Below are positions 3,004 to 13,958 of a stretch of 26,701 nucleotides of DNA, piece after piece (the first letter of the stretch is position 1; each line of letters starts with the position of its first letter). Made by a program: the position numbers and the translations under genes. Below the pieces are notes generated by a model. That model was given only the letters and a program-made list of their open reading frames with translations. It was not told the DNA's origin and searched no databases. Source of the stretch: a virus; IMG/VR virus record IMGVR_UViG_3300020428_000068, positions 1 through 26,701 of that record; one strand, 5' to 3'.

Positions 3004-3375
3004 ATGACCCAACAAAGCGAGCAGGGGATACAAAATAGAATTCGATTAGATTTATCACGCGGGCCGACCCGATTGTTTCGAAATAACACGGGTGCCTTAA
3101 AAGACGAAGGAGGGAGACTTGTCCATTTCGGTTTATGTAAAGGATCGTCCGACCTTATTGGTTGGAAAACAAAAACAATCACACAGGACATGGTTGGTTC
3201 TAAGGTGGCTATTTTTACCGCTATTGAGGTCAAAAAACCTAAAAAAAACGCCACAGATTTGCAAGATCATTTCATTAAAGTGGTCAACGCGGCGGGAGGA
3301 ATTGCGGGAGTGGCCCACAGTTCGGAAGCGGCTAAAAGGCTCCTTTATGGAAGAAATACTCATTTGCTAACATAA
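3004..3375 (+). CDS. VRR-NUC domain endonuclease
   Basis: A 123-residue single-domain protein matching the VRR-NUC nuclease family, whose small phage members cut branched DNA. Visible features are a Glu in the first helix (Glu6), the GSSD motif (47-50) with the catalytic Asp50, AIEVKKP (73-79) with the E75-x-K77 pair, and a conserved Gln87 in the following helix. These are the PD-(D/E)XK-like catalytic elements expected for the fold, and the length is normal for stand-alone versions. It sits between the SF2 helicase and the primase gene, consistent with processing replication or recombination intermediates. The ATG follows an AAGGAAC ribosome site. Substrate specificity cannot be read from sequence. 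Confidence 0.88.
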   Translation: MTQQSEQGIQNRIRLDLSRGPTRLFRNNTGALKDEGGRLVHFGLCKGSSDLIGWKTKTITQDMVGSKVAIFTAIEVKKPKKNATDLQDHFIKVVNAAGGIAGVAHSSEAAKRLLYGRNTHLLT

Positions 3376-3390
3376 GCTCGCTCCATAAAA

Positions 3391-3417
3391 TTGGTTCATT
3401 TACCAAAGAAACGGTAA
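3391..3417 (+). other. two mutually exclusive short hairpins before a small gene
   Basis: TTGGT (3391-3395) can pair with ACCAA (3402-3406), or TTACC (3400-3404) can pair with GGTAA (3413-3417). The two hairpins share bases and cannot form together. There is no T tract, so this is not a classical terminator. It may be chance in a 69-base gap. Confidence 0.2.
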
Positions 3418-3444
3418 GCTCCGAAAACCCCCAAGGAATAAAAA

Positions 3445-3648
3445 ATGGAACTACAGGACAAAAACGCATTTAATGAATCGGTGGCCTTTGCCGCTGGTGT
3501 TTCGCACGAAAAAAGTAGACTCCGAAAACTAATAAAAACCCGTTTAGAAGTTTTAAAAGTTTTAAATAAAACTCCTGTTCGCGCTGAAGTGGTTCGTAAT
3601 ATGAGCGCCGAACTTGAAAGACTTTTAGATTGGATAGAGAGCGATTAA
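3445..3648 (+). CDS. small helical phage protein of unknown function
   Basis: A 67-residue protein that I do not recognise. It is highly charged and predicted to be mainly helical, with a basic middle part (KSRLRKLIKTRLEVLKVL) and an acidic C-terminus ending in WIESD. No membrane segment or Cys cluster is present. An AAGGA ribosome site lies a good distance before the ATG. The TAA stop is followed immediately by the ATG of the primase-helicase gene, so the two are likely co-translated. Its place between a nuclease and a primase suggests an accessory replication role, but that is only context. Confidence 0.75.
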   Translation: MELQDKNAFNESVAFAAGVSHEKSRLRKLIKTRLEVLKVLNKTPVRAEVVRNMSAELERLLDWIESD

Positions 3649-5739
3649 ATGTCGGAAAATTTAATTGAACAACTTCGGGCGCTTCCCGATGGTTGGGCCT
3701 TCCTTCCGTGTGGGCCGGATAAAAGACCTTATGGCGAATTTGCCGGAGACTGGTCTAACAAACCACAAAAAAAGAAAACTGTCGAAAGGGAAATAATTGA
3801 AGGGCGGTGCGTTTCTGTAGGCGTTATGTCCGGCCCTAAATCCGGCGGGCTATTAATGGTCGATCACGACGGGCAAGGGGCTTCTGAAGAATTAAAATTG
3901 TTGGGCCTTCAAAAAGGGCTTGGCGATCTCCCAAAAAGTTGGGCGTGTACCTCCTCAAAAAATGCTCGCCTTCAAATTATTTACAGAGTCCCTGAAAAAT
4001 ATTGGGACAGGATAAAAACTACAAAACTTTGGAAAGCGCGGATAAGTAGCTTTAACGAATTTAAGGGTAAAGAGGAGCAAGAAAAGCTTGAACTTAGATG
4101 GGACGGATGCCAAAGTATTTTATTGGGCTATCACCCCGAAACAAAGGGATATAGATGGTTAAAAGGACGCGCCCCTAATGATTTACCAATAGCAGACGCG
4201 CCGGATATATTGTTGCGCCAAATGCTAAAACCCCAACAGCGGGAAACAAATAAAGCACCTTATGTCACTAAAACAGACAGCGAACGCGCACGGTCTTATT
4301 TACGCGCATTAAGTGCGGGACGGTCTGATGATTACGACGAATGGCTAAAAGTAGGAATGGCTCTTCATAGCACAGGAGATGATAGTTTACTTTTTGATTG
4401 GGATTCTTGGTCTAGCCAATCCGCTAAATATGAACAAGGGATTTGCGATGCTAAATGGAACAGCTTTGAAGCGGGCGGCTCGGTCACTTTAGGAACGCTC
4501 CACGAGTACGCAAAACAAGACGGTTGGATACCTGATTTACCAACGCGGCAATATAAAAATACAACTAACCAAGAACAACAAACTCGCCCCGATAATGACA
4601 GCGGCGCAATCCAATTACGCAAATTAGAAGCGATTGAACTTTTAACAATTTTACGTCAACAGCGCGTTTCCGATAATATTCGTTTTAATGTTTTTACACA
4701 GGAAATAGAGATAAACGAAAAACCTATTGAGGGAATAGATCGCTTCTATTTAACGCTTGCCCAAATGGGTTATAAAGTACCAAAAGAATTGGCGATAGAT
4801 TGCCTCGTCGAGGTCGCCCGTGAAAACGAATACGACCCTGTCAAAAACTATTTAGAGTTCGTAAGCGAAACAGTAAAACCGACTTATGTAGACGCACTTT
4901 CCACTACATACTTAAGGCCGGAAGATGAAGCCGGATGCCTTTACGATGAGATGTTAAAAAAATCATTGATCGGCGCGGTTAAGAGAATTTACGAACCGGG
5001 ATGTAAACATGACACCTCGTGCATTTTGATCGGATGCCAAGGCGCACGAAAATCAACTTTCTGGAACGTATTAGGCGGGCCGTTCTTTTCTGACAGCCTC
5101 AAAGACATAGGATCAAAAGACGACCTAATGGTGTTACATCGCTCTTTCATTATGGAAATGAGCGAACTTGATCACATAACTACTAAAAAGCAAGCGGGTT
5201 TAATAAAAGCATTTTTAAGTCAGTCGACCGATATTTATCGGGTGCCTTACGGTAAATCGACGGAGGTTTTTCCCCGCCGCGGGATAATTGTAGGCAGTAC
5301 AAACCGAAATAATTTTCTGATGGACGAAACGGGCAATAGAAGATTTTGGTGCATACCCGTAACGAAAAATATCACCGACCCGATTGATACTCCCAATTTA
5401 ATAATTGAGCGAGATGCGATTTGGTCGGGCATTGTTAAAGCTTACAAAGAAGGGGAAACCAATTATTTAGACGCGACAGGCGAAATAAAAGTTGACGATG
5501 AAAATCAGGATTATTTAGTAGCGTCGCCTTGGCAAAAAGCGATTGAAGAATTTATCGACAATAAACCTTTCGAAACTTTAACCACTGAACTTTTATTACG
5601 AGCCGCGATTGAAAAACCTTTAGACCGCCAAACGAAAGCCGATCAAATGCAAGTGGCTGATGTTTTAAAGCGGCTTGGCTACGACAAAAAGCGCATAACG
5701 GTAAACGGTCGCCGTCAGTGGGAATGGTACAAAGTATGA
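3649..5739 (+). CDS. primase-helicase (Prim-Pol-like N-terminus, PriCT, VirE-like ATPase)
   Basis: A 696-residue replication protein. The N-terminal part (about 10-190) resembles bifunctional primase/polymerase domains, with VDHDG (71-75) as likely metal-binding acidic residues and a GYRW segment near 167. Residues about 210-292 look like a PriCT helical domain (RSYLRALSAG, then DAKWNSFEAGG). The C-terminal part (about 430-600) is a virulence-associated-protein-E-like P-loop ATPase. It has a Walker A GCQGARKST (462-470), acidic EMSELD (503-508), GSTNRNNFL (549-557) and GNRRFWCIPV (562-571) motifs. Such proteins prime and unwind phage DNA. The gene begins directly after the previous stop and overlaps the methyltransferase gene by four bases (ATGA). 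Domain borders are estimates. Confidence 0.88.
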   Translation: MSENLIEQLRALPDGWAFLPCGPDKRPYGEFAGDWSNKPQKKKTVEREIIEGRCVSVGVMSGPKSGGLLMVDHDGQGASEELKLLGLQKGLGDLPKSWACTSSKNARLQIIYRVPEKYWDRIKTTKLWKARISSFNEFKGKEEQEKLELRWDGCQSILLGYHPETKGYRWLKGRAPNDLPIADAPDILLRQMLKPQQRETNKAPYVTKTDSERARSYLRALSAGRSDDYDEWLKVGMALHSTGDDSLLFDWDSWSSQSAKYEQGICDAKWNSFEAGGSVTLGTLHEYAKQDGWIPDLPTRQYKNTTNQEQQTRPDNDSGAIQLRKLEAIELLTILRQQRVSDNIRFNVFTQEIEINEKPIEGIDRFYLTLAQMGYKVPKELAIDCLVEVARENEYDPVKNYLEFVSETVKPTYVDALSTTYLRPEDEAGCLYDEMLKKSLIGAVKRIYEPGCKHDTSCILIGCQGARKSTFWNVLGGPFFSDSLKDIGSKDDLMVLHRSFIMEMSELDHITTKKQAGLIKAFLSQSTDIYRVPYGKSTEVFPRRGIIVGSTNRNNFLMDETGNRRFWCIPVTKNITDPIDTPNLIIERDAIWSGIVKAYKEGETNYLDATGEIKVDDENQDYLVASPWQKAIEEFIDNKPFETLTTELLLRAAIEKPLDRQTKADQMQVADVLKRLGYDKKRITVNGRRQWEWYKV

Positions 5740-6521
5740 AAACTAATTACTTATACAATGAATGCTGCCTAACTACCCTTAAAAAAATTCCTGATAATTT
5801 TATAAAAACAACGATCACATCCCCGCCTTACAACCTAAATCTAAGGATCAGAAATAAAAAATATTGCTCGCGGGAAATAATAGATGAAACTGGCGGATCT
5901 AAATATTCTGATTTTTCGGATAATTTACCTGTTGATGAATATTACAACTTTCACACCAAAGTCATTGACGAGTTATTACGCGTAAGCAATTTAATTTTTT
6001 ACAATGTCGCGATAGTAACTGGCAGCAAAAGATCGGTCTTTAAAATGATCGGGGAATATTCTGATTATCTAAAAGAAGTAATCGTATGGGATAAAGGCCG
6101 AGCCGAACCGTCTATTCAAAAAGGAGTCCTAAATAGAAGAACTGAATTAATTTTCGTTTTTGAAAAAGAAAATGCAATTAGCAGACAATTTAAAAGCGCC
6201 TCCTTCGATAAAGGAACCTTAGAAGACATTTGGCTAATACAGCGCCAAAAATCAGATTATAAAGGTCATAAAGCTATTTTCCCCGAACAGCTAGTTTCAA
6301 ATATCCTTACTAATTTTTCTGAAGAAAACGATATTATCTATGACCCGTTCGTAGGGACAGGCACGACCGCTTTAGTTTGTAAAAAAATGAACCGACGGTT
6401 TATAGGTAGCGAAATAAATAAAGAATATATCGAGATAGCTAACCAACGATTAAAAACGGGTAAACTTGAACCAATTGATGACAACAATAAAAAATACACC
6501 CAATCAGTTTTAGACTTTTAA
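5736..6521 (+). CDS. DNA methyltransferase, N4-cytosine or N6-adenine class
   Basis: A 261-residue amino-methyltransferase in the order target motif then AdoMet motif (beta-class permutation). The catalytic motif is TSPPYN (28-33); the AdoMet-binding motif is DPFVGTGTTA (203-212), followed by FIGSEINKEY. TSPPY occurs in both N4-cytosine and N6-adenine enzymes, so the target base is uncertain. I prefer the ATG at 5736, which overlaps the primase stop as ATGA; an in-frame GTG at 5718 would add six residues. No restriction endonuclease is adjacent, so it is probably an orphan enzyme that protects phage DNA or marks it for regulation. The recognition sequence cannot be deduced. Confidence 0.9.
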   Translation: MKTNYLYNECCLTTLKKIPDNFIKTTITSPPYNLNLRIRNKKYCSREIIDETGGSKYSDFSDNLPVDEYYNFHTKVIDELLRVSNLIFYNVAIVTGSKRSVFKMIGEYSDYLKEVIVWDKGRAEPSIQKGVLNRRTELIFVFEKENAISRQFKSASFDKGTLEDIWLIQRQKSDYKGHKAIFPEQLVSNILTNFSEENDIIYDPFVGTGTTALVCKKMNRRFIGSEINKEYIEIANQRLKTGKLEPIDDNNKKYTQSVLDF

Positions 6522-8127: not shown

Positions 8128-8721
8128 ATGAAACACGAAACGATTGAAATATTTCCTACAACAGTTTGCAAAAGCAAAGTCGACAAAAGCTTAATAAATG
8201 AAATAATAAAATGGCAGAATGAATCGACCGATTTTGTATATCAAGAGGTTTTTAATAATCCGATCTTCGCCGAGCTTCAAAACGCAGTCGAAACCGAAGC
8301 ACAACGAATTTGCCCTAAAACTGAAAGAATTGACCAATGGAAAATAGTAAGCGCGTGGGCCAATAATCAACCGCCGCAACAAAAAGGATTTGGTTTTCAT
8401 GGCCACGCTGATTCATTTATTTCCGCCGTTTTATATTTACAGGGTGAAGAAATGTCACTTTCCTTTCGGGATAGCCCGCGAGAAAGCCCTACAACAAACA
8501 CGGCCCAAACTAAGTTTGATATAATTGTCCGTCATACTTGGCACGACGACGTTTCTATACCTGTTGAAATAGGCGATTTATTATTTTTTCCTTCTTACCT
8601 ATTGCACGAACCTAATCATAATTTAAGTAATAAAGAGCGAGTTTCTATCGCTTATAATTTATTTCCTACCCGTAAAAATCCTCCCTCTAGCCCACCTTGG
8701 AGCATGGCTTTTAATTTATGA
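8128..8721 (+). CDS. 2OG-Fe(II) dioxygenase
   Basis: A 197-residue protein with the features of 2-oxoglutarate and iron-dependent dioxygenases, which hydroxylate or demethylate a substrate while converting 2-oxoglutarate to succinate. The iron-binding triad is readable as His93-x-Asp95 (in GHADSF) and His160 (in LLHEPNHN), with Arg171 (in KERVSIAYNLF) positioned to bind 2-oxoglutarate. The conserved GDLLFFPSYLLH segment (149-160) is typical of phage and cyanobacterial members of the hypothetical TIGR02466-like group. Its stop overlaps the next small gene (ATGA). The substrate is unknown; protein, free nucleotide or DNA base are all possible. It is one of two such enzymes in the window. Confidence 0.85.
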   Translation: MKHETIEIFPTTVCKSKVDKSLINEIIKWQNESTDFVYQEVFNNPIFAELQNAVETEAQRICPKTERIDQWKIVSAWANNQPPQQKGFGFHGHADSFISAVLYLQGEEMSLSFRDSPRESPTTNTAQTKFDIIVRHTWHDDVSIPVEIGDLLFFPSYLLHEPNHNLSNKERVSIAYNLFPTRKNPPSSPPWSMAFNL

Positions 8722-9824: not shown

Positions 9825-11300
9825 ATGGACAGTAGTATTAACCCCTCGATGGCAAAGCGTGTCGAAGTTTGGAGCATCGACAGACTTAAACCTTATAAAA
9901 AAAACGCCCGCACCCACGATGCAGATCAGGTGGCGCAAATAGCCGCGAGCATCACACAGTTTGGTTTTTTAAATCCGATTTTAGTCGACGGCGAAAACGG
10001 AATAATTGCGGGGCACGGTCGTTTACTAGCGGCAAAAGATTTAGGAATGACGGAAGTGCCTGTCGTTCCCTTGGAACATTTAACGCCGGAGCAAAAAAAA
10101 GCTTATGTAATAGCAGACAACCAGCTAGCGCAAAACGCGGGTTGGGATGAAAGTCTTTTGCGTGAAGAATTACAGGATTTAAAACTTAGCGAATTTGATT
10201 TAGACCTTCTTGGCTTCGGGCCGGAAACTTTAGATAGTTTATTTGACGATGATATGGAAAATATTTTCGGAGATAATGACCCAACAGAACCCGAAGGCGA
10301 TCCACTAGCTTACGGTGATCCAAAAGAACTACAGGGATCTTTGGCTGAAAGTTTTGGTATCCCACCATTTTCAGTTTTAAACGCCCGCGAAGGCTGGTGG
10401 CAAACTAGAAAAAAACATTGGATTAATTTAGGCATACAGTCAGACGAAGGCCGCGATGAAAATATTTTAGGTTATGACAATTTGGCAAAAACTCTTGGGC
10501 GCACTGGTGTTTTGGCTAGCTCGACAAGTATTTTTGACCCTGTATTAGCAGAACTTTGTTATAGGTGGTGGTCGCCTTCCGGCTCTTTAATCCTTGACCC
10601 GTTTGCGGGCGGAAGCGTTCGAGGGATAGTAGCGGGCAAATGTGACCGTAAATATTTCGGCGTTGATCTAAGGGAAGAACAAGTATTAGCCAACGAACAA
10701 CAAGCCGCAGTCGTCGCACCGGAATGCGATATTAAATGGCAAACGGGAGACAGTTTAGAAATAAAAACTTTGCTTCCTGATCTAGAGGCGGACATGGTTT
10801 TTACTTGCCCGCCTTACGCGGATTTAGAAAAATACAGCGATGATCCTCAAGACTTAAGCAATATGAAATACCCTGAGTTTATTGAAAAATATAAAAAAAT
10901 AATCGCGGATAGTTGCAGCCTCTTAAAAGACAATCGGTTCGCCGCGATAGTAGTTGGCGAGATTAGAAAAAAAGACGGCGGCTATTACAATTTTGTGGGT
11001 GATACTATTCAGGCATTTTTAGACGCGGGCCTTAGTTATTACAATGAAGCAATATTAGTAACTATGGCGGGGAGCCTTCCACTTAGGACTAGGCAATATT
11101 TCGAAGTATCAAGAAAACTAGGCAAAACTCATCAAAATATATTGGTTTTCTGTAAAGGCGACCCGCGTATAGCAACGCAAGCGTGCGGCGAATGTGAATT
11201 TGGTGAGATTAACGAAGATTTAGCAGACCACGAACAGGAGCCAGAAGCAACAGAATATGGCGAAAAAGTAACGGCTGAATCAATTGGAGGAGAATTATAA
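9825..11300 (+). CDS. ParB-like domain fused to DNA methyltransferase
   Basis: A 491-residue two-domain protein. Residues about 12-100 are a ParB/Srx-like domain (SIDRLKPYKKNARTH, FLNPILVD, then GIIAGHGRLLAA with the box-II-like GHGR at 63-66). Residues about 185-455 are an amino-methyltransferase with AdoMet motif LDPFAGGSVRG (257-267) followed by YFGVDLREEQ, and catalytic motif TCPPYADLEKY (327-337). These fused proteins are common in phages and methylate DNA at adenine N6 or cytosine N4; the ParB-like part may bind DNA or hydrolyse nucleotide. The stop overlaps the next start as TAATG. A start at the ATG at 9849 is an alternative. An acidic linker lies near 136-170. Confidence 0.9.
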   Translation: MDSSINPSMAKRVEVWSIDRLKPYKKNARTHDADQVAQIAASITQFGFLNPILVDGENGIIAGHGRLLAAKDLGMTEVPVVPLEHLTPEQKKAYVIADNQLAQNAGWDESLLREELQDLKLSEFDLDLLGFGPETLDSLFDDDMENIFGDNDPTEPEGDPLAYGDPKELQGSLAESFGIPPFSVLNAREGWWQTRKKHWINLGIQSDEGRDENILGYDNLAKTLGRTGVLASSTSIFDPVLAELCYRWWSPSGSLILDPFAGGSVRGIVAGKCDRKYFGVDLREEQVLANEQQAAVVAPECDIKWQTGDSLEIKTLLPDLEADMVFTCPPYADLEKYSDDPQDLSNMKYPEFIEKYKKIIADSCSLLKDNRFAAIVVGEIRKKDGGYYNFVGDTIQAFLDAGLSYYNEAILVTMAGSLPLRTRQYFEVSRKLGKTHQNILVFCKGDPRIATQACGECEFGEINEDLADHEQEPEATEYGEKVTAESIGGEL

Positions 11301-12448
11301 TGGATGATCCCGCTTGGGCGTTAGGGTTTGAACTTTCTTTTTTAAAAGAAGTCGCCGCAATTTTCAAAAAGGAATTTAAACCACATACATACGGTGCATT
11401 TGGATTACCCAAAGAAAGAGACATCGCCACTGCTTTAAAGGACAAACAACTCGCTTGGGTTCGTTCTGAATCAGAAATCACGGCAGTTGCTATTTTTCGA
11501 CTATCTAAATCAAAAAGCTTACAGACTGATTTTGCTCAAAGGAAAATTGCTGTATTGAAAAATGATTTACAAGTTAAGGCGATAGCTGGCACAACGGCTG
11601 GAATTAATACCCTGTTAACAAAATTAAGAGAAAACGCTGGCCCTCGGCCTACATGGGTTGAAGTCCACGCAGAAAACAGCCGAGTACAAGACGTTATCCT
11701 AAAGTTAGGATTCTCATCAGTAGCCACAAAAGTATCTGCTTCGTCTGACATAAAAACTTTATACGTTAAAAATGTCAACGAAACTCAACGGGTTTCCGGT
11801 TCCCTTTTTGAGTCTGACATTCCGGCTTTAAAATTATTAGGGAAAGGAGCAGATGTTGAAACAGTTCAACAGTGTTTAAAAGAAATCAATCAATTTAAGC
11901 CACCGTGGGAGCAACATTATAGTTCCTACAACAAACGCAAATCTTGGACGGCGGTTGCGTTGCAGGGTTTTGATCCGAATGATCCTCAATTTATTATTAA
12001 ACCCGAAGAGATGTCGAAAGGATGGAAGCTGTCAAATCCGAAAAGGTTATTAGCTAAATGTGCGCCAACATCAGCAGCTACAAGTCTTCCGACTGTATGG
12101 AAATTGGCAAATTCTATACCCGGCAAATTAGAAAGAGTTCGTCTAATGCGATTGCAAGCAAACAATGGCGAGTTAGCAAGACACGCAGACATTACAGATA
12201 GAAATGCCGGAACAGCTAACGGACGGATTGCTCGTCTACATATTCCATTGCAAACGGGGACAGGGTGTATTTTTTCTTCGTGGAATTTATCAGGGGAAAA
12301 GGTAATGTCTCACTTCCCCGCTGGATCTCTTTTTTATTTAGACATTCGAAAACCACACGCAGTTAAAAACACAAGTCAAACAACGAGGATTCATTTAGTC
12401 GTTGATGTTGCCTGTAATTCTGAAACGAGGGCTTTAATCAATGCCTAA
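11300..12448 (+). CDS. GNAT-like domain fused to aspartyl-hydroxylase-like 2OG-Fe(II) dioxygenase
   Basis: A 382-residue fusion. The N-terminal part (about 1-157) reads as a GNAT acyltransferase-like domain: a variable start, an AWVRSESEITAVAIFRL strand pair near 52-68, and the typical ending TWVEVHAENSRVQDVILKLGF (118-138). Residues about 270-372 match aspartyl/asparaginyl beta-hydroxylase-type 2-oxoglutarate dioxygenases, with His295-x-Asp297, a distal His353 (in RKPHAVKN) and Arg363 (in TTRIHLVVDV) as iron and 2-oxoglutarate ligands. A GGAGG ribosome site precedes the ATG, which overlaps the methyltransferase stop; its own stop overlaps the next start by 8 bases. GNAT pairs with Mom-type or thymidine-tailoring DNA modification in other phages; the substrate here is unknown. 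Confidence 0.75.
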   Translation: MDDPAWALGFELSFLKEVAAIFKKEFKPHTYGAFGLPKERDIATALKDKQLAWVRSESEITAVAIFRLSKSKSLQTDFAQRKIAVLKNDLQVKAIAGTTAGINTLLTKLRENAGPRPTWVEVHAENSRVQDVILKLGFSSVATKVSASSDIKTLYVKNVNETQRVSGSLFESDIPALKLLGKGADVETVQQCLKEINQFKPPWEQHYSSYNKRKSWTAVALQGFDPNDPQFIIKPEEMSKGWKLSNPKRLLAKCAPTSAATSLPTVWKLANSIPGKLERVRLMRLQANNGELARHADITDRNAGTANGRIARLHIPLQTGTGCIFSSWNLSGEKVMSHFPAGSLFYLDIRKPHAVKNTSQTTRIHLVVDVACNSETRALINA

Positions 12449-13166
12449 TGAATGGTGGCAACCAAAACCGATTATTGAAGAACACAATCGGTTTCTAGTA
12501 GTTCGTGATGATCTTGTTCCCGGTGGTTCAAAAATGAGGTTTTTGCCTTACTTGGTTAAGGATGCAAAAGAAGTTGTATTCGGCGGCCCTTTTTGTGGAG
12601 GTGCTCCGTATGCACTTTCAGTTTGGGGTGGCAGAACAAAAACCAAAGTGACGTTGTTTTATGCAAAAAGAAAAGAGCTACATATTAGACAAAAAAAAGC
12701 GTTAAAAAATGGTGCAACTATTTATCAGGTTCCGTATGGTTATATGTCTAATGTTCAATCAAAAGCAAAAAAATACGCAAAAGACAAAGGGGCTTTGTTT
12801 TTACCTTTAGGCTTTGATGTGTCAGAAGCATCAAACCCATTTATCCATCAAATGAAATTAGTTCGTTCAATGGTTGGGAAAGTAGACCAAGTATGGGCGG
12901 CGACAGGTTCGGGAATGCTTGCTCGTTGTTTAGGAAAAGCTTTTGATCCTATTCCTGTTCATGGTGTGGTTGTCGGATTAGCAAGTCGAAACGAAAAGCA
13001 AACTTATTCACCAAATGTTACGTTGCATAAGTATCCAAAAGACTTTTCATGGTCTTGTGGATATAAAGCTCCGTTCCCCTCATGTGGCAATTACGATCTA
13101 AAAGCGTGGGAAATGTGTCAAAAATTGTCAAAAGGTAAAACGCTCTTTTGGAATGTTTTGGCCTAA
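12441..13166 (+). CDS. fold-type-II PLP-dependent enzyme-like protein (ACC deaminase/desulfhydrase relative)
   Basis: A 241-residue protein resembling the 1-aminocyclopropane-1-carboxylate deaminase/D-cysteine desulfhydrase family. VRDDLVPGGSKMRFL (21-35) matches the family's RDD...GGNK-R region, with Lys31 as candidate pyridoxal-phosphate lysine. FGGPFCGGAPYALSVW (47-62) corresponds to the substrate/cofactor loop, and WAATGSGMLARCLG (152-165) to the glycine-rich phosphate-binding turn. It is shorter than family members of about 300-340 residues, lacking some C-terminal part. It overlaps the GNAT/oxygenase gene by 8 bases, so the two products probably act on one pathway, perhaps making or transferring an amino-acid-derived group. 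Assignment is moderate; no experiment or alignment supports it. Confidence 0.65.
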   Translation: MPNEWWQPKPIIEEHNRFLVVRDDLVPGGSKMRFLPYLVKDAKEVVFGGPFCGGAPYALSVWGGRTKTKVTLFYAKRKELHIRQKKALKNGATIYQVPYGYMSNVQSKAKKYAKDKGALFLPLGFDVSEASNPFIHQMKLVRSMVGKVDQVWAATGSGMLARCLGKAFDPIPVHGVVVGLASRNEKQTYSPNVTLHKYPKDFSWSCGYKAPFPSCGNYDLKAWEMCQKLSKGKTLFWNVLA

Positions 13167-13399: not shown

Positions 13400-13424
13400 T
13401 TCAAATCTCCTTGCGTACATTCCG

Positions 13425-13430
13425 ATTATA
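13425..13430 (-). promoter_or_regulatory. candidate -10 box for the opposite-strand small gene
   Basis: Minus-strand TATAAT at 13430-13425, within TGGTATATAAT, can also be read as an extended -10 (TGG before TATATA). It lies about 26 bases before the start codon of the small minus-strand gene, with the ribosome site between. No good -35 box is seen at normal spacing, which is acceptable for an extended -10 promoter. Confidence 0.4.
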
Positions 13431-13482
13431 TACCATTAAAGCCCGCGGAGCGAGGCCTAAGTCATTGCTTTACCAACATAAA

Positions 13483-13872
13483 ATGAGACTTCTGAGTTGG
13501 GCTTCCTTAGACGAAGCCGTCTTCAGGTTAGCGGCGGAATTCGAGGGCCGAGCCTTTAATGGAGTTTACGGTGTACCCAAAAGCGGCACAATTTTAGCGA
13601 CTGTTTTAGCTAATTATTTGGAACTTCCTACGCTCGACAGTCCTGAAGAATGTTCAATTATTGTTGACAGTATTTACAGCACAGGCTCGACCCTTGAAAA
13701 ATACAAAGACATTTTTGGTTGCTCTTACGCGGTATGGATAACCCGCAAAAAGCCTTATTGGTACACCGCGGTCGAATATACGGTAAAAAAAGAGTGGGTT
13801 GTCTTTCCTTGGGAGTGTCCGATTTATAGTGCTAAAGAACGTGACTCTTATTATTTGAGGGTAATCAGATGA
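13483..13872 (+). CDS. phosphoribosyltransferase-like protein
   Basis: A 129-residue protein read from the ATG at 13483. It has the type I phosphoribosyltransferase layout: a loop GVYGVPKSG (27-35), and the PRPP-binding loop region IIVDSIYSTGSTLEKY (59-74), followed by EWVVFPWE (104-111), typical of phage members. In canonical enzymes the PRPP loop begins with two acidic residues (VDD); here the second is Ser63, so catalysis may be altered. Such enzymes make nucleotides from a base and PRPP. Its stop overlaps the next tiny ORF (ATGA). It may supply a modified nucleotide or act on bases in the modification cassette, but only location suggests this. Confidence 0.75.
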   Translation: MRLLSWASLDEAVFRLAAEFEGRAFNGVYGVPKSGTILATVLANYLELPTLDSPEECSIIVDSIYSTGSTLEKYKDIFGCSYAVWITRKKPYWYTAVEYTVKKEWVVFPWECPIYSAKERDSYYLRVIR

Positions 13873-13958
13873 CAAAAATCTGTGACTGCGAACATTGCCG
13901 AAAAATAAAAAGTCAACAAAAGCAGCACGCTTCTTGGCTTAAACGCAAAAAATCTTAA
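13869..13958 (+). CDS. 29-residue Cys/His-containing peptide
   Basis: The ATG overlaps the phosphoribosyltransferase-like stop (ATGA), and its TAA overlaps the terminase small subunit start (TAATG). The peptide begins with a C-x-C-x-x-C arrangement with one His (CDCEHC, Cys5, Cys7, Cys10) that could bind a metal; the remainder is very basic (about ten Lys/Arg). Coupling on both sides supports translation. Its role is unknown, perhaps a nucleic-acid-binding helper or simply a coupling peptide. Confidence 0.5.
   Translation: MTKICDCEHCRKIKSQQKQHASWLKRKKS

Follow-up and report, generated by a model that had tools for sequence, protein, structure and literature searches.

A cassette of three overlapping genes is encoded in a 26,701-base IMG/VR record from a tailed phage (IMGVR_UViG_3300020428_000068), which was taken whole and is called the window below. 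These genes code for a ParB-domain protein of a DNA 'methyltransferase' (MTase) family, for a protein in which a GNAT fold is fused to a 2-oxoglutarate (2OG) oxygenase, and for a short pyridoxal phosphate (PLP) enzyme (Table 1), and their interpretation as a coupled phage DNA-hypermodification module is well supported. On the basis of sequence comparisons and structural models, it is proposed, with a probability of roughly 0.48, that the MTase would move the 3-amino-3-carboxypropyl (acp) side chain of S-adenosylmethionine (SAM, AdoMet) to a base and that the PLP and 2OG enzymes would remodel the resulting amino acid. A broader statement is advanced a little more tentatively, namely that a widespread family of phage 'DNA methyltransferases' would transfer, without methylation, either the amino-acid side chain of SAM or the aminopropyl group of decarboxylated SAM (dcSAM), the product then being sculpted by PLP and AspH-type enzymes.

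The product of the first gene matches ParB_N (E 3e-6) and N6_N4_Mtase (E 5e-12) in Pfam, which agrees with the label of ParB-methyltransferase that it had received in a first-pass annotation made from the sequence alone, and it matches phrog_498 in PHROGs (E 9e-136). Motif I of the N6/N4 amino DNA methyltransferases is present. The catalytic motif, however, is CPPY, which is the counterpart of the [DNS]PP[YFW] of these enzymes with a Cys in place of D, N or S and which is invariant in the aligned members of the family.

The nature of the transferred group is suggested by the partners of this family. Among the members found in IMG/VR and in fetched phage records (n=183 after deduplication), the MTase gene is accompanied by a decarboxylase gene (56), a PLP gene (55), PLP and GNAT-2OG genes (35), a GNAT-2OG gene only (4) or no recognised partner (31), and in two members the PLP domain is inserted. 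Indeed, Pseudomonas phage ZRG1 and Croceibacter phage P2559S encode the same MTase family, and the overlapping partner gene codes in both for an AdoMet decarboxylase (AdoMet_dc in Pfam, E 2e-23 and 2e-19). The P2559S decarboxylase restores spermidine in an E. coli speD mutant and is thus a real AdoMet decarboxylase (PMC9992855); no spermidine synthase is annotated in the P2559S genome. Decarboxylation of arginine or ornithine, known for homologues in some phages (PMC10407285), was rejected for P2559S only, whose enzyme is active on AdoMet (PMC9992855). As an AdoMet decarboxylase is coupled to the same MTase family, transfer of a SAM side chain rather than of a methyl group appears to be indicated, and the MTase-AdoMet decarboxylase pair, to judge from these sequences, probably constitutes an independent system for DNA aminopropylation.

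Furthermore, motif I differs with the partner. It reads GGSVRG in all readable members with both GNAT-2OG and PLP genes and in nearly all PLP members, versus a GD[ST]VFG type in about 50 of the 54 decarboxylase-linked members, the fuller forms being DPFAGGSVRG with PLP and D[CPT]FAGD[ST]VFG with the decarboxylase. Motif I is a strong correlate of the partner, but, on a quick tree of the MTase, as a single event. At two other loci (L216, 1959-3143; L218, 4556-5710), a member of the MTase family overlaps a PP-loop-like protein of about 390 amino acids (AFSGGKDCLA), which replaces the PLP enzyme or the decarboxylase; the L216 MTase carries a third variant of the SAM loop (DCFAGDTQKG), and the L216 PP-loop-like protein has no PHROG or NCBIfam match.

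The coupling of the genes is conserved. The three genes had been described as joined end to start, and the junctions read as described, with TAATG at the first and 8 shared bases at the second. The three-gene order with its overlaps recurs in more than 10 close contigs and in dozens of distant ones in IMG/VR, and the remaining genes of the close-relative contigs are unlike those of the window. A wider search gave 73 loci with a GNAT-2OG gene and at least 448 PLP stretches, of which the best 79 were kept; a search of phage records with the window PLP protein returned three records only, most of the evidence coming from the IMG/VR and MTase searches. Terminase genes, which fall into several unrelated clusters, usually come next after the cassette in a set of 86 non-redundant PLP loci. 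Among the 99 PLP genes whose upstream sequence was long enough, 85 overlap the MTase or GNAT-2OG gene or lie at most 30 nucleotides from it. This gene order is far beyond chance and marks a conserved, mobile set: rare co-occurrence of the three genes, which the first-pass annotation named as a ground for refuting its reading, is not what is found, and the order recurs across contigs with unrelated terminases. In the Erythrobacter phages ZS04 and R6L, the PLP domain even interrupts the MTase, at a point between its motif I and motif IV (CPPY), and the same insertion is very likely present in Pseudanabaena phage Pam4, where the protein is matched in two pieces by tblastn and the product is named 'pyridoxal-phosphate dependent enzyme'. 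The recurrence of the cassette, the overlaps and the insertion all favour the earlier idea of a coupled, multi-step base modification that goes beyond ordinary restriction evasion. Prophage copies of the cassette are found mainly in Rhodobacterales and Rhizobiales. The GNAT-2OG gene is optional and the MTase-PLP pair is the core of the cassette: about 55 deduplicated MTase-PLP loci have no GNAT-2OG gene nearby, and PLP-only and PLP+GNAT-2OG members interleave on a quick tree of the MTase.

Other layouts were also observed. An extra gene of about 200 amino acids stands among the MTase, GNAT-2OG and PLP genes in a few phages (L017, 4242-4862; L038, 6308-6907); it has no Pfam match, and the L017 copy has no PHROG match either. 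In L035 (4050-7143), the genes upstream of GNAT-2OG code for a PALP protein of divergent sequence and for a canonical GNAT (Acetyltransf_1, E 1e-13), and no MTase gene stands beside it, a possible alternative arrangement. A divergent MTase and a 'carboxylate deaminase' (PALP) are encoded directly 5' of the terminase in Mycobacterium phage Vincenzo (gp1-gp2; L181, 1-2275), a cultured M. smegmatis phage whose gene pair would be a convenient test system. Mae-JY30 is a further cultured phage with an MTase of the PLP type.

The product of the third gene, previously called a PLP-like enzyme, is placed in PLP fold type II by its motifs and by Foldseek. It matches PALP in Pfam (E 2e-5, below the curated cut-off) and phrog_7093, 'threonine dehydratase', in PHROGs (E 4e-28). 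Its AlphaFold model (predicted local distance difference test, pLDDT, 93) is closest to CJ0600, D-cysteine desulfhydrase and a 1-aminocyclopropane-1-carboxylate (ACC) deaminase homologue (9jqf, 4d9f, 1j0a), with E about 1e-11 against D-cysteine desulfhydrase and the ACC deaminase homologue. A PLP lysine, a Gly-rich phosphate loop and a tryptophan-synthase-beta-like fold are all present, the lysine being presumably K31, by analogy with the GGNKxR of D-cysteine desulfhydrase. The substrate loop (GGPFCGGAP) is unlike that of D-cysteine desulfhydrase and ACC deaminase, and the protein has no NCBIfam match and so is not assigned to the equivalogs of either enzyme.

The second gene had been read as a GNAT/2OG fusion, and both folds are indeed found (Pfam, AlphaFold), but a role as acetyltransferase is doubtful because the loop that binds coenzyme A (CoA) is absent. 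For the 2OG part, (i) the C-terminal half matches Asp_Arg_Hydrox (PF05118, 2OG; Pfam E 7e-9), (ii) the nearest solved structures to the AlphaFold model (pLDDT 95) are, by Foldseek, L-proline cis-4-hydroxylase, Cpz10 and AspH, the matches 4p7w and 7v4f being returned by the profile search as well, and (iii) NCBIfam gives a weak match to 'putative nonproteinogenic amino acid hydroxylase'. The double-stranded beta-helix, the HxD...H pattern and the 2OG-binding Arg of AspH and the free-amino-acid 2OG hydroxylases are present, and the domain belongs to the group of AspH, L-proline cis-4-hydroxylase and Cpz10, known to act on amino acids rather than on methylated bases; the Pfam scan gave no Tet_JBP (PF12851) match for this protein. 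The GNAT domain has no Pfam match, and its fold is confirmed by the AlphaFold model (Ard1, 2x7b; TMt 0.58, E 9e-6 in Foldseek). The acetyl-CoA pyrophosphate loop, (Q/R)xxGx(G/A), is absent in 40 of 40 aligned GNAT-2OG members, and acetylation by this domain was dropped as a candidate function.

A second context of GNAT-2OG is found in a distant group that includes Mycobacterium phage LilMcDreamy, with the order ParB, TET/JBP, amino acid:DNA transferase (ADDT), GNAT-2OG and terminase. The tested neighbours match Tet_JBP in 7 of 7 cases and ADDT in 7 of 7, and GNAT-2OG, standing beside TET/ADDT as well as beside MTase/PLP, therefore accompanies two different routes that probably make an amino-acid-bearing base. 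In this group, LilMcDreamy gp2 (L026, 855-1787) is labelled 'queuine tRNA-ribosyltransferase' (phrog_6059), a label that looks wrong: gp2 and six homologues have Tet_JBP matches (up to 7e-21) and the HxD...H pattern of 2OG enzymes, on which grounds a deazaguanine link was dropped.

Table 1. Features of the cassette (window positions) and loci of the decarboxylase branch.
Feature	Position	Strand	Description	Basis
Open reading frame (ORF) 1	9825..11300	+	ParB-N + SAM-dependent DNA 'methyltransferase', CPPY family, 491 aa	Pfam, PHROGs
ORF 2	11300..12448	+	GNAT-fold / 2OG oxygenase fusion, 382 aa	Pfam, AlphaFold, Foldseek
ORF 3	12441..13166	+	PLP fold type II enzyme, short, D-cysteine desulfhydrase / ACC deaminase-like, 241 aa	Pfam, PHROGs, AlphaFold, Foldseek
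TAATG stop-start junction, genes 1/2	11298..11302	+	1-base overlap	sequence
Overlap of genes 2/3	12441..12448	+	8 bases	sequence
Motif I / SAM-binding loop DPFAGGSVRG, aa 258-267	10596..10625	+	sequence type of PLP-linked members	
Catalytic motif IV CPPY, aa 328-331	10806..10817	+	aligned with SPPY of 2zie	
GNAT-fold domain, aa ~1-160	11300..11779	+	without canonical acetyl-CoA loop	AlphaFold, Foldseek, alignment
RHAD, aa 294-297	12179..12190	+	Fe ligands H295 and D297; invariant in 40/40 homologues	
H353	12356-12358	+	third Fe-ligand His; invariant in 40/40 homologues	
R363	12386-12388	+	candidate 2OG-binding Arg; invariant in 40/40 homologues	
K31 in GGSKMRFL	12531..12533	+	presumed PLP lysine; invariant in 31/31	
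GSG, aa 156-158	12906..12914	+	PLP phosphate loop; invariant in 31/31	
MTase + AdoMet decarboxylase loci	L185 (ZRG1) 3356-5201; L186 (P2559S) 3356-4997; L188-L263		CPPY-type ParB-MTase overlapped by decarboxylase	

The cassette had been placed immediately before the packaging genes. Packaging genes do lie downstream, but small genes stand between, and the terminase small subunit (phrog_57) starts at 13958, 0.8 kb 3' of the cassette; one of the intervening ORFs (13411-13872) is weakly phosphoribosyltransferase-like (phrog_8995, E 8e-9). The window also encodes, upstream of the cassette, a separate small 2OG-Fe(II) oxygenase (8128-8721; phrog_81, PF13759) and a second, ordinary-looking N6/N4 DNA methyltransferase (5718-6521), which overlaps the end of a VapE/primase-like gene. 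5-hydroxymethyluracil synthesis, TET, kinase and ADDT are all lacking among the nine scanned proteins of the 26.7 kb fragment, which would fit the earlier remark that a known thymidine pathway is incomplete here.

Gene coupling, folds, conserved cofactor residues and partner swapping are read from sequence and structure prediction, and the scheme that we infer covers the acp transfer, the order of the steps, the target base and a protective role. The ParB-MTase would bind DNA and SAM and would transfer acp rather than methyl to a base, with methylthioadenosine as the by-product; in the decarboxylase-linked systems it would transfer aminopropyl from dcSAM. The acp-bearing base would be an alpha-amino acid, which is the type of substrate of PLP enzymes and of AspH/proline-type hydroxylases. 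The PLP enzyme could then remodel this base-borne amino acid by elimination, deamination or loss of CO2, and the GNAT-fold/2OG protein of the window phage could also hydroxylate it. The base that results would be bulky and polar and would shield the genome from nucleases ahead of packaging. Several points weigh against this scheme: (i) the change in motif I corresponds to essentially one split on the MTase tree and is counted as one event, its repeated evolution having been rejected on this ground, (ii) the GGSVRG of PLP-linked MTases also occurs in members without a recognised partner and is compatible with plain methylation, (iii) the contact of residue 266 with the donor is a presumed one, suggested by the place of this residue in motif I, (iv) in the TET/ADDT systems that carry GNAT-2OG, amino acids are attached in another way, and (v) decarboxylation of SAM or acp is not known among PLP enzymes of fold type II.

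The PLP enzyme could instead edit the amino-acid head of SAM before the transfer, with the MTase then moving the edited group, for example aminopropyl, to DNA. In a sister phage, the same operon slot is taken by an enzyme proven to edit the SAM head, and a PLP domain inserted in the MTase could channel the donor; nevertheless, the PLP-linked GGSVRG loop is that of partner-less members whereas the decarboxylase-linked loop is changed, which suggests that unedited SAM is bound, and this order of events is considered rather unlikely. In the model of the first-pass annotation, the base would be methylated, the methyl group oxidised by the 2OG domain, and a conjugation carried out by the PLP enzyme. 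An MTase, an oxygenase and a PLP enzyme are all present, and other phages do have pathways that combine a methylase with TET. This order is nevertheless considered improbable: most PLP-MTase pairs have no oxygenase gene (the 55 or so deduplicated loci mentioned above), a methyl group is no substrate for a PLP enzyme, the 2OG domain resembles AspH and proline hydroxylases more than TET, with relatives that act on amino acids, and the MTase family is coupled to an AdoMet decarboxylase.

A comparably low probability is given to an MTase domain that only recognises DNA and flips the base, while the PLP enzyme would draw on serine or O-acetylserine and attach the amino acid by beta-replacement. Enzymes that catalyse beta-replacement, O-acetylserine sulfhydrylase among them, do belong to fold type II, and the PLP domain can be physically inserted in the MTase, but motif I and CPPY remain intact, and the decarboxylase partner points to the SAM side chain mattering in this family. 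It is very improbable that no DNA modification takes place and that the PLP enzyme or AdoMet decarboxylase drains SAM, thereby blunting SAM-dependent host defence: phage SAM-depleting enzymes, the SAM lyases, are known (mentioned in PMC12783734), but depletion leaves the coupling to the MTase, the domain insertion, the partner-dependent SAM loop and the amino-acid-type hydroxylase unexplained. An ordinary N6/N4 DNA methyltransferase beside unrelated metabolic genes has an equally slight chance; it would fit the N6_N4_Mtase call of Pfam and the 31 of 183 members that stand alone, but not the overlap conserved across unrelated phages or the insertion of the PLP domain.

Iyer et al. reportedly predicted, in 2013, phage modifications made from modified SAM derivatives, and may thereby have anticipated the decarboxylase branch. 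The PLP branch is not reported in the literature searched, Iyer et al. 2013 and Lee et al. 2021 lying outside the searched full texts, and, as far as could be checked, transfer of an amino-acid-like group from SAM by a 'DNA methyltransferase' has not been demonstrated before. If side-chain transfer is correct, aminocarboxypropyl and aminopropyl transfer, so far found with RNA, polyamines and natural products, would be added to the chemistry of the DNA methyltransferase fold, PLP chemistry and amino-acid hydroxylation would take place on polymeric DNA, and the AdoMet decarboxylase gene of phages like P2559S, which have no annotated spermidine synthase, would be explained.

Related chemistry is known from natural products. 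In microcin C, the MTase-fold protein MccD transfers acp and the PLP-domain protein MccE follows (PMC10491745). In nucleoside antibiotics, acp transfer is followed by hydroxylation by Cpz10 or decarboxylation by Mur23 (PMC10491745, PMC9814697), Cpz10 acting on an aminobutanoyl-type side chain, proposed to be SAM-derived, on glycyluridine (PMC9814697). MccD/MccE, Mur24/Cpz13 of muraymycin and caprazamycin, Cpz10 and Mur23 thus resemble the proposed path, in that SAM-derived acp on a nucleotide or nucleoside is followed by a 2OG or PLP step, and the 2OG domain of the cassette has Cpz10 among its nearest structures; the substrates of these known enzymes are free small molecules, whereas that of the cassette is proposed to be DNA. 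The PLP folds of the microcin C and muraymycin enzymes also differ from that of the cassette.

Among phage systems, the CmoA/CmoX/CmoY carboxymethylcytosine system of Synechococcus phage S-B43 (PMC12783734) likewise has a phage DNA 'methyltransferase', which uses a modified SAM to add a tailorable handle, and ParB-domain genes are often nearby. CmoX, however, is a C5-cytosine enzyme with SPPC that uses carboxy-SAM, whereas the cassette has a CPPY amino-type MTase with a PLP enzyme or AdoMet decarboxylase; the features of the CmoX system (SPPC, carboxy-SAM Arg, CmoA) are not those of the window, where the motif is CPPY and no CmoA is found among the genes scanned. Thymidine hypermodification (5-hydroxymethyluracil kinase, ADDT and TET variants) also places an amino acid on a base and tailors it, with GNAT-2OG accompanying TET and ADDT in LilMcDreamy-type phages, but the adduct-forming pair of the cassette is MTase and PLP enzyme. 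Mom of phage Mu has in common a GNAT fold in phage DNA modification, whereas the GNAT fold of the cassette is fused to a 2OG oxygenase. The MTase and AdoMet decarboxylase pairs of P2559S and ZRG1 share with the cassette the MTase family, the slot and the overlapping genes, and differ in that a pyruvoyl decarboxylase replaces the PLP enzyme and the SAM loop GD[ST]VFG replaces GGSVRG.

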